Part shown: positions 7,612 through 45,901 of the stretch, one piece after another
Layout: every line of letters begins with the position of its first letter
Position numbering within the stretch: position 1 is the stretch's first letter
Source: an uncultured Modestobacter sp.
GTDB lineage: Bacteria; Actinomycetota; Actinomycetes; Mycobacteriales; Geodermatophilaceae
Assembly: GCF_947486615.1 (NCBI RefSeq)
Contig: NZ_CANKUD010000010.1
Span: forward strand, 62,001-126,000
Length of the DNA: 64,000 bases
Direction: 5' to 3'
Notes under the pieces: generated by a model
Databases searched by the model: none
What the model saw: the letters and a program-made list of their open reading frames with translations, nothing else
What the model was told of the DNA's origin: nothing
Program-made: the position numbers and the translations under genes

Positions 7612-8598
7612 ATGGTCACGCTCCTGGACAGCCGGCAGCTCACCGGCACCGACCGCCGTCCGGCCGCCGTCCTCGCGCGGCTGCAGGCCGGGATGAGCTC
7701 CCGGGTGCGGCTGCGCGACCCGGCGGCACCGCTGGAGGTCCGCCTGGACACCTGGCAGCTCAGCAGCCTGCCGGTGCTGCGCGCCGACGTCGTCGGCCCG
7801 CTGACGGTCAGCCACCGCCGCTCGGTGGCGGACGCCCCGCCGGTGCTGTCGTTCTACGTCCAGGAGCACGGCACCGGCCGGCACGAGCAGGGTGGCCGGC
7901 GGCGGGAACTGCCGCCCGGCGCCCTCACGGTCACCGACGTGACCACCCCCTACGACTTCGCCTGGGGTGACGCGGCAGGCGCCGGCCGGGCGCTGCAGGT
8001 CCCGGTCGCCCGCCTGGGGCTGTCCGTCGACGACGTGCGCCGGGCGGTCCCGCGCGTGGCTGACAGCCCGCTGTACGAGCTGGTCCGGGCGCACGTCGCC
8101 CAGGTGACCCGGGACGCCGAACGGCTGACCGCCGACCCGGGGTGGCCGGCACTGTCGGTGGCGACCGTCGAGCTGGCCCGGGCCCTGGTGGTGTCCGCCG
8201 CCGGCGCCGGCAGCGCGGTGCCGGAAGAGAGCCTGCTGGTCCGGGTCCGCAGCTGGGTCGACCAGCACCTCACCGACCCCGACCTGGACGCCGCCCGCAT
8301 CGCGGCCGAGCACGCGATCAGCGTCCGCCAGCTCTACCGGCTGTGCTCGGCGGCGGGGTTCAGCCTGGAGCAGTGGGTGATCGACCAGCGCCTGGCGGGC
8401 GCCCGGGCCGAACTGGCCCGCCCCGGTGGCCGGCCGATCGCCGCAGTGGCCCGGGCGTGGGGGTTCGGTGACCCGTCGCACTTCTCCCGGCGGTTCCGGT
8501 CGGCGTTCGGCATGACCCCGCGCGAGTGGCGCACCCAGCGCCAGGCCCCACCGCCGCCGTCCGCACCCCTCCCCCGGCCCCGCACCCGTCTCGGGTAG
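7612..8598 (+). CDS. AraC-family transcriptional regulator
   Basis: This 328-aa regulator has an N-terminal sensing domain of the AraC-binding-like type (residues ~20-190) and a C-terminal double helix-turn-helix (~225-315). The latter contains [19 protein letters not shown] and the family signature [20 protein letters not shown] followed by MTPREW. AGGGAGG precedes the ATG. It is transcribed away from the hydrolase gene across a 192-bp divergent region, where an actinobacterial -10-like TAGCGT reads toward the hydrolase. It is therefore a likely activator of the hydrolase; the inducer is unknown. Confidence 0.9.
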
Positions 8599-39855: not shown

Positions 39856-40797
39856 TCATGCGCCCACCTGCTCGCCGAGTCGCTCGCCGGGCTCGGGCCG
39901 GGCCCCGCGGGCCCAGTCGGTCGCCGGGGTCATCTTCTTGCCGGCCGGCTGCACCTGGGTCAGCCGGACCGCGCCGCGCCCGGTGCCCACCAGCACGCCG
40001 GTCGGGCCGACCGACACCTCGCCGGGCTCCAGTGCGAGCGAGGAGGTCAGCGGCTCCACCGGGGCCAGCCGCAGCCGGTTGCCCCGCCAGGTGGTCCAGG
40101 CCCCCGGCGCCGGGGTGACGCCACGCACCCGCCGGTCCACCACGTGCGCCGGCAGCGCCCAGTCGACCCGGGCGTCCTCGGTCTCGATCCGCGGGGCAAG
40201 GCTGATGCCCTCGGCCGGCTGCGGCTCGGGCCGCAGCGAGCCGTCGGCGATGCCGTCCAGGGTGGCGACCAGCAGCCCGGCGCCGCTGACCGCGAGCCGG
40301 TCGAGCAGGTCCCCGGCGGTGTCGCGGGGGCCGATCGACTCGGTGACGACGCCGAACACCGGCCCGGTGTCCAGGCCGGCCTCCAGCCGGAAGGTGGCCG
40401 CGCCGGTGACCTCGTCACCGGCCATGATCGCGTGTTGCACCGGGGCGGCACCGCGCCAGGCCGGGAGCAGCGAGAAGTGCAGGTTCACCCAGCCGTGCCG
40501 CGGCACGTCGAGGGCGGCCGGCGGCACGAGCGCGCCGTAGGCGACCACCGGTGCACAGTCCACGGCCAGGTCGGCGAGCTGGGCGAGGAACTCCGGCTCC
40601 CGCGGTGACCGGGGCTGCAGCACCGGGATGCCCGCGGCGTCCGCACGCTCGGCCACCGGGGATCGGCTGGTGCGCCGCCCCCGGCCCGAGGGTGCGTCGG
40701 GCCGGGTGAGGACGGCGACGACCTCGTGCGCGGAGCCCAGCAGCGCGTCGAGGGCGACGACGGCCGGCGCCGGGGTGCCGGCGAACAGGAGTCTCAG
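39856..40797 (-). CDS. fmt: Methionyl-tRNA formyltransferase (CTG start)
   Basis: Fmt (313 aa) formylates initiator Met-tRNA. The formyl-transfer domain has [42 protein letters not shown] (catalytic Asn, His) and DTGPVFG. The C-terminal OB-like domain spans about residues 205-305. No ATG, GTG or TTG exists at the expected start. A CTG at 40797 gives exactly the family N-terminus and overlaps the def stop as CTGA, the same geometry as the ATGA/GTGA overlaps elsewhere here. GGTGAG lies a few nt upstream. Confidence 0.93.
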
Positions 40798-41351
40798 TGG
40801 GGGCTCACCTTCACGACGGGGGCCGGCACCGGCGAACCGTCGGGCAGCCAGGACTGCGCGCCCTGCCACTCCGCGTCCTGCAGCACCGACAGCGCGGCCG
40901 CGCGGGCCTCGGCGTCCAGCCGGTCGACGAAGAGGACGCCGTCCAGGTGGTCGGTCTCGTGCTGGATGGCGCGGGCCAGCTTGTGCGAGCCCTCCACCCG
41001 GATCGGGTCGCCGTACATGTTCCAGCCGGTGGCCGCCACGGTCAGGTAGCGGTCGCAGTCGAACCGGAAGCCGGGGATGGACAGGCACCCCTCGGCGTCC
41101 CGCTCGACGTCCTCGCCCACCGGGACGACGTCGGGGTTGACCAGGTGGCCGACCTCGCCGTCGACGTACCAGGTGAAGACCCGCAGGCCGACGCCGATCT
41201 GCGGCGCGGCGATGCCGGCCCCACCGGCGGCGTGCATGGTGTCGGTCAGGTCGGCGACGAGCTGCCGCAGCTCGTTGTCGAAGTCGACGACGGGGGCGGC
41301 CGGGGTGCGCAGCACCGGGTCGCCCATGATCCGGATCGGGGTGACGCTCAC
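40794..41351 (-). CDS. def: Peptide deformylase
   Basis: Def (185 aa) removes the N-formyl group from nascent proteins. All three metal motifs are present: [12 protein letters not shown] (motif I), EGCLSIPGF (motif II, Cys ligand) and [12 protein letters not shown] (motif III, HExxH). The C-terminal tail is longer than in the E. coli enzyme and Pro/Val-rich. The GTG at 41351 is 6 nt after a TACCAT box. It is coupled to fmt. Confidence 0.95.
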
Positions 41352-41412: not shown

Positions 41413-41907
41413 ATGGCCTCACTCGCCTCGCACCGCGTGCACGCCGTCCTCAGCACCGTCGTCGACGGCCTCACCGTCGGCGCGGCCGAGGCCGCCCTCG
41501 ACCACCCCGCCCGATCAGCTGCCCGGCTGCGCGTCTACCTGGCCATGATGGCCGCGGTCGCGGCGGACACCGTGGCCCACGACCTGCCCTCGCTGCGGCG
41601 CGCCTTCGCCGGCATGCCGGTCGAGCAGGCGGACCCGGCCGACCGGGCGGTGCTGCGCCACCAGGGCCTGGCCACCGTCGGCTGGGGTCTGGGCGCCACC
41701 GCCGTCCACGGCCCGCTCGTGCAGGCGCTGCGCCGGCGTGGCCACCGCCGTCCGCACCTCCTGGTCGGGGTGGTGGCCGGGGTGGGCGCGGCCGCCACCA
41801 CGCTGCCGGTGCGCTGGCGCCGGGCCACCGAGCGGGCCGCCGAGGACCTCGCCGCCGCCCGGCTGGACGACGAGCTCGCCGAGCTGCTGGCCCAGTCCGC
41901 CGGCTGA
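41413..41907 (+). CDS. Helical hypothetical protein
   Basis: This 164-aa protein is Ala-, Arg- and Val-rich and predicted mostly helical. It has one or two hydrophobic stretches ([35 protein letters not shown]) that may be membrane helices, and an amphipathic C-terminal [25 protein letters not shown] recognise no family. It is leaderless by its -10 spacing. GC content is like the core genome. Its stop is only 18 bp from the edge of the low-GC cassette, so it marks the left boundary. Confidence 0.65.
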
Positions 41908-41925
41908 CTGAGCAGCTGCCTGCTT

Positions 41926-42504
41926 CTAATCGTCCGAAAGCAGTCGTCCAACCTCGCTCACTAGCAGGCCAAAGGACGGACAGCGACTCCTTGCCATTTC
42001 AATGTCCATCGCGGCCGCGAAACTTGGCTGGTGCAGAGTCGGACGGTAAGACTCGGTCATTTGCGCACTCAGAGCACCCTTTGCATCTCTCTTGCCTTCC
42101 GGGTCACCTTCAAAAGACGCATCATGTCTGACGCTACGATGCGAACGCAGACTCACAATGGACCCCAGGAACCAGGCTTCAAATTCACGAACGGCGACAG
42201 CGGCTGCGGCTCGCTCCGGGGCCAGCTCGTGCAACAACTGATTGAGACCGCTCCTTGTTTCGTTCGGGTCGTCGTCATCGGCGTCACGGAGGACGATGAC
42301 GCCGCCGGACTCACCTACGCGCTCCGCGAGCACATGAACGATGGGCGCCAACCCCTCTCCGTGCATGAGATTGACAGGCAAACGCCAGGGTGACGAGACG
42401 GTCACATGACACCCGAATACCTCTAACGCGATTCGCCGTAGAAGAACCGGAACCGCCCGCACTTCGCCATGACCCTCCACAATCGGTGCAAGTATCGGGC
42501 TCAT
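41926..42504 (-). CDS. DUF4276 TOPRIM-like protein of a two-gene ATPase cassette
   Basis: This 192-aa protein has the DUF4276 pattern. The N-terminal APIVEGHGEVRAVPVLLRRI gives the TOPRIM-type conserved Glu, GGVIVLRDADDDDP gives the DxD acidic motif, and VREFEAWFLGSI plus GDPEGKRDAKGAL are later family blocks. TOPRIM folds bind metal and act as nucleases or primases, so a nuclease role is plausible but unproven. Its ATG overlaps the ATPase stop (ATGA), so the two are translated together. GC is far below the neighbours and the codon use is less biased. The pair probably arrived by transfer. Confidence 0.8.
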   Translation of the reverse strand: MSPILAPIVEGHGEVRAVPVLLRRIALEVFGCHVTVSSPWRLPVNLMHGEGLAPIVHVLAERVGESGGVIVLRDADDDDPNETRSGLNQLLHELAPERAAAAVAVREFEAWFLGSIVSLRSHRSVRHDASFEGDPEGKRDAKGALSAQMTESYRPTLHQPSFAAAMDIEMARSRCPSFGLLVSEVGRLLSDD

Positions 42505-43694
42505 GTTGTGGGCAGCGGAAGTTCGAATCGCGTCTTGTCAGGTATCAACTGATCCTGTCGCAACATCTCTCCAGCGGTGAATAGGCCGTCCGCAATAGCC
42601 AACCGACCAGCTGAATCGGGCCGCCCAATGACTGTCTCTCCAGCCTCGGAGCGCACAGCAAGGAGCTCGTCCTCTCGAATAGTCGGGTCATCCAGCAGGT
42701 CAGGACTGTGACTCGTAACCAAGACCTGCCGGTTGCCACTCGCATCGCGCAACGCACCCATCAGTACACCAGCGGCCGCCGGGTGCAATGCAATCTCGGG
42801 TTCCTCGATCCCAACGGAGCTAACTACCGGAGACGGGGCGGGGAAGAGTGCCAGTAACACACCGAGCGCGCGCAACGTTCCATCCGACATGGAATTTGCG
42901 GCGAACGACCAGGGCTGCTTAGCGCCAGTAACGTGCTGCCGGAATTCAAGACTCTCCCAAGAGCCCAGGCTGATTCGTTCGACACCGTCGACCCCTGGCA
43001 CGACTTGACCCAGATACTCCTCAATCCTAGCCTTCAGTTCCGGATTCTCTCGGCGCAAACGCTCAATGACGCTGGCGGCATTGCTGCCGTCACGCCGCAA
43101 CTGCTCCCCAGAGTCAGGATTCTGGAGTTTCCGCATGCTATCGGGGTTGAGGCTGTACATAGCGAGCGCACTCAACCCATCAAACAGCGTCCTGAACGGC
43201 TCCACTGCAGAAATTGCAACCAGGCTTAGCCGATCGTCAACTACCGAAGGGAACTCGCGTATCGAAGTCGAAGCAAGCTTTCCGTTCCGGGTTGAATAGT
43301 GATGCCTTTCAGTGTGCCCGAACTCGGCCGACTGAATCATGCAATCTTCATGAGATATGCGATAGTCACCGCCAGAAACGGCAGCTACCTGGAAAGAAAA
43401 AGAACCAGCAAGCAGTCCTTGAACGAAGTCAAGTTCAATGCGGAAGTGGGTTGGGTGACCAGTCGACCTACGCCGCACCTCCGTGATGCCACCACGATCG
43501 CGCAGTGCATGGTCCAGCGTGGTGGTAAGAGCGTCTGATGTTAGTCTAAGTGCGTCAAGGAAGTTCGACTTACCCGACCCATTTGGGCCAACCAGCATAG
43601 CCAGCGGACCAAGTCTCACATCGCACGAAGCGATGCTCTTAAAATGCCGCAGACGCACCCTGCGGATTGAGAAGCTGCTTCCGTAGCCACTCAC
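42501..43694 (-). CDS. SMC/OLD-type ABC ATPase (AAA_21-like) of the same cassette
   Basis: About 397 aa from GTG 43694. The N-terminus is FSIRRVRLRHFKSIASCDVRL and then the Walker A LVGPNGSGKSNFLDAL. A central insert (~residues 70-280) separates it from the signature-like SMSDGTLRALGVLLAL, Walker B SSVGIEEPEIALHP and the H-loop TSHSPDLLD. This is the single-chain ABC architecture of RecF/OLD-like ATPases used in defence systems such as Gabija, PARIS and Septu. A longer frame begins at 43781, but GTG 43694 has GGGGTG five nt upstream. Low GC; it lies between priA and def, where no such gene is expected. Confidence 0.85.
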   Translation of the reverse strand: MSGYGSSFSIRRVRLRHFKSIASCDVRLGPLAMLVGPNGSGKSNFLDALRLTSDALTTTLDHALRDRGGITEVRRRSTGHPTHFRIELDFVQGLLAGSFSFQVAAVSGGDYRISHEDCMIQSAEFGHTERHHYSTRNGKLASTSIREFPSVVDDRLSLVAISAVEPFRTLFDGLSALAMYSLNPDSMRKLQNPDSGEQLRRDGSNAASVIERLRRENPELKARIEEYLGQVVPGVDGVERISLGSWESLEFRQHVTGAKQPWSFAANSMSDGTLRALGVLLALFPAPSPVVSSVGIEEPEIALHPAAAGVLMGALRDASGNRQVLVTSHSPDLLDDPTIREDELLAVRSEAGETVIGRPDSAGRLAIADGLFTAGEMLRQDQLIPDKTRFELPLPTT

Positions 43695-43849
43695 GTTTCC
43701 ACCCCGATCGTCTGGTAACCGAATCTTGATTGTGCCACTGCCGCCGCATCGACCTAAGCAGCTGTGATCGCCAGTCGTCACCCACCTGTCCGCAGCGAAG
43801 TCAAAGAGTGACTGCGGCGACTGAATCAGTGGCCGCCCCGGCGGCCGCC

Positions 43850-45799
43850 TCAGGCCAGCTCGAGCGGGTCCAGCTGCACCCGGACGTGCTCGGCGACCTT
43901 CTTGGCGCTGCGCACCCCCTGCACGTCGTGCAGCGCGCGGGCCAGGGCGACGCCGTCGCTGCGGCGCACCCGCACCAGGTACCGCTCCCGCTCGCCGTCC
44001 TGGCCCGGCCGCGGCGGCTCGGGCACCGGCCCCAGGACGTCGGCGCCCCCGGGCAGCCGCAGCGCGTCCAGGAAGTCGGCCAGCGCCGCGGGTGAGGCCG
44101 ACAGCGAGGCCATCCGGGTGACCGGCGGGAAGCCCAGCTCGCGCCGGTCGGCCAGCTCCCGGGCGGCCAGGCCGGCCGGGTCCCAGCGGACCAGGGCCTG
44201 CACCACCGGGTGCCCGGCGTCGGCGCTGACCACCACCTGCCCGCCGGCACGCACGAGCGCAGCCGCGTTCATCCAGCGGCGCAGCGTCTCCTCCCCCGCC
44301 CGCAGGTCGGCCCGGCCCAGCAGCGCCCAGGAGTCCAGCAGCAGGGCCGCGCCGTAACCGCCCTCCGCCACCGGCTCGGCCCCCGGGGTGGCGACCACGA
44401 TCGCCGGGTCACCGGAGACGGTGGCCAGCACCGAGCCCCGGCCGGAGACCCGCACCGCCGCGCCCGGGAAGGCCCGGCCCAGCTCCTCGGCGGTGCGCGA
44501 GGCACCGACCACCGCGGCCCGCAGCTTGGTGCCGTGGCAGTGCGGGCAGTCGAAGGTGGCGGCCGGGCGGGCGCACCACCGGCAGGCCGCGATCCGGACG
44601 CCGTTCGGCCCGGGCGCCGGGGCGATGCCCAGCGGGCCGGCGCAGTGCGCGCAGCGGGCCGGGGCCCGGCACCGGTCGCACACCAGCGAGGGGACGTAGC
44701 CCGACCGCGGCACCTGGATCAGCACCGGTGCGCCGGCCTGCAGCGCCTTGCGGGCAGCCGTGAAGCCGAGCGTGGGCAGCCGGGCCGAACGGGCGGCCGG
44801 GTCGCGGGCCAGCTCGAAGTCGCTGCCCAGCGCCTCCACCCGGGGGGCCGCCGCGCGCAGCGTCGCCCGGTCGGCGACCAGCTCGTGCGCCCACCCGGAC
44901 TCCACCAGCAGCGCCGCCTCCGCGGTGCGCGCGGTGCCGGCCACCACGGCCGCGCAGGAGGCCAGGTGCGCCCGGTGGACCAGCACGTCGCGGGCGTGCG
45001 GGTAGGGCGCCCGGGGCTCGGCGTGCAGGTCGTCGCCGTCGTCCCAGATCACCACCAGACCCAGGTCACGGACCGGCGCGAAGACCGCCCCGCGGGTGCC
45101 CAGCACCACCTGTGCGGTGCCCCGGGCCGCGCTCAGGAACCGGCCGTACCGGGTGTCGGGGGTGGAGTCGGCACGCAGCACGGCCACCGAGCCGGCCGGC
45201 AGCAGCCGTTCCGCGGCCGCGGCGAGCCGGTCCAGGTCCTTGCCGTCGGGGACGACCACCAGCGCCCCGCGACCACCGGACAGGGCGGCCTGGGCCAGCT
45301 CGGCCAGCCGGGTGGGCCAGTCCTCGCCGGGCAGCGCCGTCCACACGGCGCGGGCCGGGTGGCCCTCGGCGACGGCGGCCAGCAGCTGCGGCCCGGTCGG
45401 GTACCGGGCGAACCCGGCCGGGTCGGGGGCCTGCGGCGGTGGCGGCGGGTCGAGCCGGGGCCGCTTCTCCGGCGCACCCCGCCGCGGGGGCAACGCGAGC
45501 CGCAGCACGTCGGTCATCGACCCGGCGTAGCGGTCGGCGACCGACCGGGCGACCTCGGCGACCTCCGGGGTGAGCACCGGCTCGGCGGAGACCACCTTCG
45601 CCAGCGGGGCGAGCTTCCCGGTGTGGTCGGTGCTGCCGGCCAGCTCCAGCACGACGCCGTCCACCAGTTTGCCGGCGAACCGCACCCGCACCCGGCAGCC
45701 GGCGACCACCTGCTCGGCCAGCTCGTCGGGCACGGCGTAGTCGAAGGGCCGGTCCAGGTGGGCCAGCGGTACATCGACGACCACCCTGGCGACCCGCAC
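43850..45799 (-). CDS. priA: Primosomal protein N' (PriA), helicase-inactive actinobacterial form
   Basis: This 649-aa replication-restart protein keeps the N-terminal 3'-DNA-binding domain (VRVARVVVDVPLAHLDRPFDYAVP), the zinc-binding block CDRCRAPARCAHCAGPLG...CRWCARPAATFDCPHCHG with eight Cys, and the C-terminal domain. The helicase motifs are degenerate. Where Walker A GxGKT should be the sequence reads VVVPDGKDLDRLA, and the DEEH box is replaced by VVIWDDGDDLHAEPRAPY. It can therefore bind forks but should not unwind DNA, as generally seen in actinobacteria. The GTG at 45799 starts the conserved region. Confidence 0.93.
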   Translation of the reverse strand: MRVARVVVDVPLAHLDRPFDYAVPDELAEQVVAGCRVRVRFAGKLVDGVVLELAGSTDHTGKLAPLAKVVSAEPVLTPEVAEVARSVADRYAGSMTDVLRLALPPRRGAPEKRPRLDPPPPPQAPDPAGFARYPTGPQLLAAVAEGHPARAVWTALPGEDWPTRLAELAQAALSGGRGALVVVPDGKDLDRLAAAAERLLPAGSVAVLRADSTPDTRYGRFLSAARGTAQVVLGTRGAVFAPVRDLGLVVIWDDGDDLHAEPRAPYPHARDVLVHRAHLASCAAVVAGTARTAEAALLVESGWAHELVADRATLRAAAPRVEALGSDFELARDPAARSARLPTLGFTAARKALQAGAPVLIQVPRSGYVPSLVCDRCRAPARCAHCAGPLGIAPAPGPNGVRIAACRWCARPAATFDCPHCHGTKLRAAVVGASRTAEELGRAFPGAAVRVSGRGSVLATVSGDPAIVVATPGAEPVAEGGYGAALLLDSWALLGRADLRAGEETLRRWMNAAALVRAGGQVVVSADAGHPVVQALVRWDPAGLAARELADRRELGFPPVTRMASLSASPAALADFLDALRLPGGADVLGPVPEPPRPGQDGERERYLVRVRRSDGVALARALHDVQGVRSAKKVAEHVRVQLDPLELA

Positions 45800-45861
45800 C
45801 GGACCAGTCTCCCCGGTGGCACCGACAGTCCTCCGCCACGCCCCCGACCCCTGGCACGACA

Positions 45862-45901
45862 GAGCCCGCCCCTCCACCACGCGTGGTGGAGGGGCGGGCT
45901 C
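45862..45901. terminator. Perfect 40-bp palindrome after metK
   Basis: A 20-bp arm (45862-45881) is followed directly by its exact reverse complement (45882-45901), centred on CACGCGTG. It lies 18 bp beyond the metK stop and upstream of priA on the same strand, so it should terminate metK transcripts. Confidence 0.85.

Follow-up and report, generated by a model that had tools for sequence, protein, structure and literature searches.

A stand-alone HEC-01 gene pair between priA and def: a candidate defence module of an ABC-type ATPase and a Toprim-like DUF4276 protein

The gene pair in the priA-def interval

The window analysed here is the whole 64,000-nucleotide stretch from an uncultured Modestobacter sp., and all coordinates refer to it. 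Two minus-strand open reading frames, 42501-43781 and 41926-42504, lie between priA (43850-45880, Pfam PriA) and the peptide deformylase gene def (40794-41351, Pfam), joined by an ATGA overlap at 42501-42504 in which the stop codon of the ATPase gene meets the start codon of the DUF4276 gene. The first-pass annotation had described the overlapping genes correctly and their location in part; an extra plus-strand gene at 41413-41907 separates the pair from def, and the cassette therefore lies between convergent 3′ ends. The stretch that holds the pair extends from the 3′ end of priA to the 3′ end of this small convergent gene (41908-43849); the small gene encodes 164 aa with no Pfam match and is regarded as host background outside the system.

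The longest reading frame of the ATPase is 426 aa counted from the first GTG; a shorter version of 397 aa begins at a GTG at 43694, which is preceded by GGGGTGG. Residues 1-30 of the structural model are of low confidence (block means 45, 40 and 41) and homologue matches mostly begin at residues 32-39, so the GTG at 43694 is the likelier start and the gene is placed at 42501-43694. The ATPase is ABC/SMC-like and matches Pfam AAA_21 (E 3e-26); its partner, a 192 aa protein encoded at 41926-42504 on the minus strand, matches DUF4276 (E 4e-14; 53.8 bits against a cut-off of 30.2), and each match is over the curated cut-off. All motifs listed in the first-pass annotation are found in the translations, and all are encoded on the minus strand: the ATPase contains a Walker A motif GPNGSGKS (43566-43589), an ABC signature-like SDGTL (42873-42887), a Walker B motif IEEPE within IEEPEIALHP (42795-42809) and a switch/H-loop TSHS within TSHSPDLLD (42705-42716), and the DUF4276 protein contains EGHGE and DADDDD.

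The GC content of the pair is 57.0% (ATPase) and 58.9% (DUF4276) as against 79.0% in priA and 73.3% in def, and GC at third codon positions is 0.59 and 0.61 as against 0.96 (priA) and 0.98. The sequence lines beginning at 42001, 43141 and 43321, for which a low GC content had been claimed, measure 58.3, 58.3 and 48.3%, and no other 1.77-kb stretch of the window has a GC content as low as that of the cassette, whose composition is foreign relative to the host flanks. A promoter scan returned no promoter-like site, a terminator scan returned one terminator-like site where 2.0 are expected, and attachment or target-site repeats sought at both ends yielded none that was convincing. An 18-nt repeat of 83% identity is found at 43322-43339, in the ATPase gene, and at 43811-43828, in the gap between priA and the ATPase gene; it may be due to chance.

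Relation to HEC-01 and other catalogued systems

Both proteins are named HEC-01 by the profiles of PADLOC-DB v2 (2023). The ATPase matches the HEC-01A profile PDLC04178 (E 5.4e-156) over residues 36-419 of 426, corresponding to profile positions 6-387 of 399, and the DUF4276 protein matches the HEC-01B profile PDLC04196 (E 4.4e-59) over residues 1-190 of 192; all 15 PADLOC families matched by the small protein at E ≤ 0.1 are named HEC-01, and the HEC-01B profiles PDLC04196 and PDLC04200 match 59/59 members of the DUF4276 alignment. The first-pass annotation had called the pair a candidate undescribed system and knew of no named one with this exact pair; in view of the near full-length profile matches the former is wrong and the latter is not supported. 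Judged by these matches, the pair is a new copy of HEC-01, a catalogued but uncharacterised defence candidate. HEC stands for Hma-embedded candidate, and several HECs, including HEC-06, are described as active in assays (PMC12988326); HEC-01 is among the systems reported from Desulfovibrio piger (PMC12724379). A literature search for DUF4276 found no paper, and a search for HEC-01 found no experimental study or mechanism in its sources, which were available in part. The window pair resembles the family in that both profiles are matched nearly end to end by adjacent proteins encoded on one strand; it differs in standing alone between priA and def, whereas the family is named for its embedding in Hma clusters. 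The pair is considered to lie outside an Hma cluster because its three neighbours are PriA, peptide deformylase and a protein with no Pfam match.

Three other systems were compared with the pair. PARIS, whose components AriA and AriB have been proposed as a Class 4 OLD system, likewise consists of an ABC ATPase and a Toprim nuclease encoded by adjacent genes (PMC10568477, PMC12409363); however, the window ATPase matches the AriA profile at 1.9e-27 as opposed to 5e-156 for HEC-01A, and the AriB profiles of PADLOC-DB give no match to the small protein at E ≤ 0.1, so membership in PARIS was rejected for want of an AriB-type Toprim effector. OLD and the Gabija protein GajA share with the pair an ABC ATPase, a Toprim-like fold and the same order of catalytic-type residues; in these systems ATPase and Toprim form one polypeptide, whereas the window encodes them in two separate reading frames, which sets the pair outside both, and the Pfam results for the three neighbours tested contain no GajB-like helicase family. 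For want of an AriB match and of gene fusion, the pair is a member of neither PARIS nor OLD. The ATPase also matches MAD3 of the MADS system (NCBIfam, 105.4 bits), and mad4 is weakly matched by 2/59 DUF4276 members; the MAD3 score is far under the equivalog cut-off of 420 bits, and MADS was likewise discarded.

Predicted folds and the putative active site

The AlphaFold2 model of the DUF4276 protein is of high confidence (pLDDT 96.9, pTM 0.92). Its top match in Foldseek is the C-terminal Toprim region of the OLD protein from B. pseudomallei (BpOLD, 6nk8; E 4.9e-4, prob 1.00, TM 0.46); in VIA the similarity is less distinctive, as the alignment to OLD (Z 8.4, rmsd 4.7, 168 aligned residues) scores only about one Z unit above unrelated Rossmann-like folds, which reach Z 7.4. 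Residue 1 of the model falls at OLD chain residue 391 in the VIA alignment. The single sequence has no match among PDB chains, and the DUF4276 profile has one (E 0.86). Comparison with OLD-Toprim profiles by hhalign gives probabilities of 0.5-10% and a best E of 0.003 for a short match that covers the first motif only, a result that does not establish sequence-profile homology.

Conservation was assessed in an alignment of 59 DUF4276 sequences, comprising the window protein and 58 of 61 references (L175, L177 and L193 were dropped). The EGHGE motif (42463-42477), the first Toprim-type acidic motif, contains E10, kept in 58/59 sequences, and E14, which is Glu in 51/59 and Asp in 8/59; the DADDDD motif (42268-42285), of the DxD type, contains D74, kept in 58/59, and D76, which is Asp in 53/59, Glu in 3/59 and Gly in 3/59. 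A third motif, EFEAW (42172-42186), holds E107, E109 and W111; E109 and W111 are invariant (59/59), and a helix predicted at 109-114 begins with E109. Position 142 is Lys in 58/59 sequences, and K142 (42079-42081) is proposed as the counterpart of the OLD catalytic lysine. In BpOLD, metal A is bound by E400 and D455, with D457 holding the metal A waters; metal B is bound by E508, in helix 1 of the helical domain, with the help of E404 and T506; and K562 is required for processive cutting (PMC6755086). The residues E10, E14, D74, D76, E109 and K142 occur in the same order as E400, E404, D455, D457, E508 and K562 of BpOLD, and the DUF4276 protein is considered to carry a putative OLD-type catalytic set on the grounds of order, spacing and conservation rather than of superposed side chains.

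The model of the 426-aa ATPase (pLDDT 90.9) resembles the ABC heads of SMC and Rad50 (Z up to 22.9) as well as PtuA (Z up to 21.0). The ATPase alignment includes the window protein and 70 of 74 references (L164, L166, L181 and L192 were dropped). The catalytic residues of the ATPase are conserved among the aligned loci, in part through the bait-based selection of these loci: at least 80 were collected with the patterns N[GA]SGKSNF and GIEEPE[IAT]A, for which reason Walker A and B conservation is partly by construction and the spread over phyla is a sample. DUF4276 did not serve as bait.

Distribution, proposed function and alternative readings

The pattern scan found at least 80 ATPase loci in many phyla; a same-strand DUF4276 gene comes next in 65 of the 80 listed, and 40 of these 65 pairs share the 4-base overlap. 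The 15 listed loci with no confident DUF4276 gene comprise three at contig edges (L152, L164, L192), four with a fitting motif downstream (L174, L185, L200, L201) and eight in which none was accepted, chance pattern matches in L154 having been rejected by eye; among the eight is L197, where a remnant reading frame (7923-8393) joins the N-terminal part of the ATPase to the tail of DUF4276. This remnant reflects an internal deletion and is a trace of pair loss. Linkage also holds in reverse: at 14 of 18 other DUF4276 places among 393 genomes of the class, a full match to the ATPase (E ≤ 1e-50) lies directly upstream, and at the other four the ATPase is weak or fragmentary (L259, L270) or there is none within the 1.5-kb flank (L263, L271). 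The DUF4276 type itself is present in 18 of the 393 genomes, the window's own counted. The GC content of the pair is under that of its flanks in 54 of 64 listed loci (median -4.7 points), a count that includes the remnant L197 and L200. In a quick ATPase tree the labelled rows of the matches listed bear 14 phylum labels; these are clustered, with 24 changes against a shuffled mean of 41.5, the Poribacteria forming one clade and the Planctomycetota, Myxococcota and Chloroflexota being scattered.

Three Streptomyces plasmids carry the pair. The sole match in a phage collection, MT835995 (L252, MT835995.1), contains an intact pair with 53% and 46% identity to that of the window; it is not counted as phage-borne because it is an unannotated faecal scaffold marked 'UNVERIFIED', bacterial-looking near the pair, with an adjoining reading frame that is DapD-like by eye. 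A scan of viral contigs found at least 29 relatives of the ATPase, the best among the matches listed being 31% identical.

Within the host family, the DUF4276 type is found in 3 of 112 genomes, the window's own counted, as searched with the A3 profile at E 0.001; this profile misses distant ATPase and DUF4276-like pairs such as L008 (G059), in the same family, and L005 and L007, in the order. Comparison of the priA-def interval, which the first-pass annotation had suggested as a way to find empty sites, did reveal them: the pair is absent from 19 same-genus intervals, and at two empty sites, L075 and L062, about 9 and 18 bp separate the priA stop from that of the small gene. The small gene at 41413-41907 is found by tblastn in the interval of 15 of these 19 genomes, with 45-81% identity. 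Only one of 60 relatives' stretches, that of G071 from another genus, carries the pair between priA and def; its proteins are 67% (ATPase) and 45% (DUF4276) identical to those of the window, and its ATPase is the sister of the window ATPase in the quick tree (SH-aLRT 98). In G071 the DUF4276 stop codon overlaps the def start codon by GTGA (L003:852-855), and the pair was therefore spliced in directly before def. Both one old insertion with many losses and two arrivals by exchange fit the shared site of G071 and the window. The remaining family genome with this DUF4276 type, G171, carries a distant pair at another place. The length of the priA-def interval varies from 25 to 2603 bp in 57 relatives (L062-L121, leaving out L083, L092 and L095, with negative lengths), with other small genes inside; by eye, some resemble an HTH regulator paired with an SRPBCC-type gene (L063, L065-L067), others a racemase (L084, L097). 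The interval was rejected as a general insertion site, as 78 of 80 listed distant loci lack the six flanking genes; at L132, def and fmt are in the flanks about 5 kb away, and at L176, metK.

The first-pass annotation had proposed a transferred two-protein defence module; a two-gene ATPase/Toprim-like unit stands, and its foreign GC and patchiness in relatives fit a horizontally acquired defence module, while defence is to be understood as a candidate label. We consider it probable that the stand-alone HEC-01 pair is an anti-phage or anti-plasmid module in which an ATPase-gated, Toprim-like nuclease stops infection. The ATPase, with its SMC/Rad50/PtuA-like ABC head, is likely the sensor and gate, and the DUF4276 protein would be a small Toprim-like metal-dependent nuclease. 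We infer that the two form a complex in which the ATPase probably keeps the nuclease inactive until a component of the invader or a DNA state acts as trigger; the freed or licensed nuclease would then cut nucleic acid, either invader DNA or host RNA such as the tRNA targeted in PARIS, and this cleavage would stop the infection. In PARIS the Toprim nuclease AriB is bound by the ATPase AriA until AriA senses a phage protein and lets it go; the released AriB then cleaves tRNA (PMC12409363). The anatomy of the window pair is the same in kind, a tight two-gene unit of an ABC ATPase and a Toprim-like partner with a putatively full catalytic set, and by analogy it is probably a mobile module of ATPase sensor and nuclease effector that operates in the manner of PARIS or of a split OLD. 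A more specific form of this proposal is put forward tentatively, its chances falling slightly short of even: DUF4276 would be a stand-alone OLD-type Toprim-plus-helical nuclease with a complete two-metal site, an SMC-like ATPase would silence it just as AriA silences AriB, and the two genes would have spread across many phyla as a solo cassette. If true, this would link a Pfam domain of unknown function to OLD, Gabija and PARIS under one theme, an ABC ATPase gate with a Toprim nuclease. The residue-level mechanistic hypothesis is the main addition to the catalogued HEC-01; the mechanism is directly testable because the alignment supplies six target residues for mutation and the tight two-gene unit lends itself to expression.

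Evidence for defence from neighbouring genes is moderate and uncontrolled. Among the neighbours scanned, no constant third gene is seen beside the pair. At five actinobacterial loci (L122, L123, L124, L165, L196; 8 proteins) a type I specificity subunit occurs at L123 and L196, the latter also with a Fic protein, and the others have an HTH protein, a dehydrogenase or nothing. The PADLOC tally (204/409 neighbour ORFs) gives a few methyltransferases, single profile matches to GajB, IetA and an RT-associated helicase, and generic kinases; it lacks a background control, and defence profiles are matched by generic kinases and helicases as well. Many scanned neighbours are ordinary housekeeping genes; the ORFs were crudely called, and the second set left out Poribacterial and some overlapping ones. 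On a Streptomyces plasmid (L253:7760-14572, NZ_CP107915.1), HEC-01 adjoins a full Gabija operon (GajA 6e-189, GajB 1e-176), with an annotated Fic-family toxin gene close by; another Streptomyces plasmid copy is near transposase, recombinase and transfer genes.

The copy beside Gabija would also suit a possible but unlikely alternative, a restriction-like module: the ATPase would recognise DNA ends or topology and guide the Toprim protein to cut the DNA of the invader, while the cell survives. DNA ends or topology are sensed by Rad50/SMC heads, to which the ATPase head is nearest; the 426-aa model, however, lacks the long coiled-coil helices of SMC. The Toprim of OLD is a DNA nuclease (PMC6755086), yet RNA cutting is equally possible for the small protein, as for AriB (PMC12409363). 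It is improbable that the pair is instead a selfish toxin-antitoxin system, a nuclease with an ATPase antidote kept by addiction, for which defence would be a mere side effect: two overlapping genes, often unrelated neighbourhoods and plasmid copies would agree with it, but near relatives almost all lack the pair and its loss is visible at L197, which is unexpected under strong addiction, and the ATPase catalytic residues are conserved (partly by locus selection). A further alternative is that the pair serves housekeeping, in DNA repair or the cell cycle, in the manner of the archaeal OLD-family ATPase Cran1; ATPases of the Cran1 type are reported as apparently uninvolved in antiviral defence (PMC12796447). 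Such a role would suit the seemingly stable Poribacterial neighbourhood but is very improbable given the foreign GC, the three Streptomyces plasmids and the 109 of 112 family genomes with no match, even with more distant DUF4276-like pairs there (L008).

Several observations weigh against the favoured reading: the short OLD-Toprim profile match, the narrow VIA margin over unrelated folds, the many housekeeping neighbours and the clustered phylum labels of the ATPase tree. The Poribacterial clade, with its flank-like GC and seemingly shared PhyH/sulfatase setting, is also less typical of a mobile defence gene. The Poribacterial copies (L153, L156, L160, L168, L187 and others) seem to share neighbours, judged by position and length; at L153, the one locus tested with Pfam, PhyH lies upstream and a sulfatase downstream.
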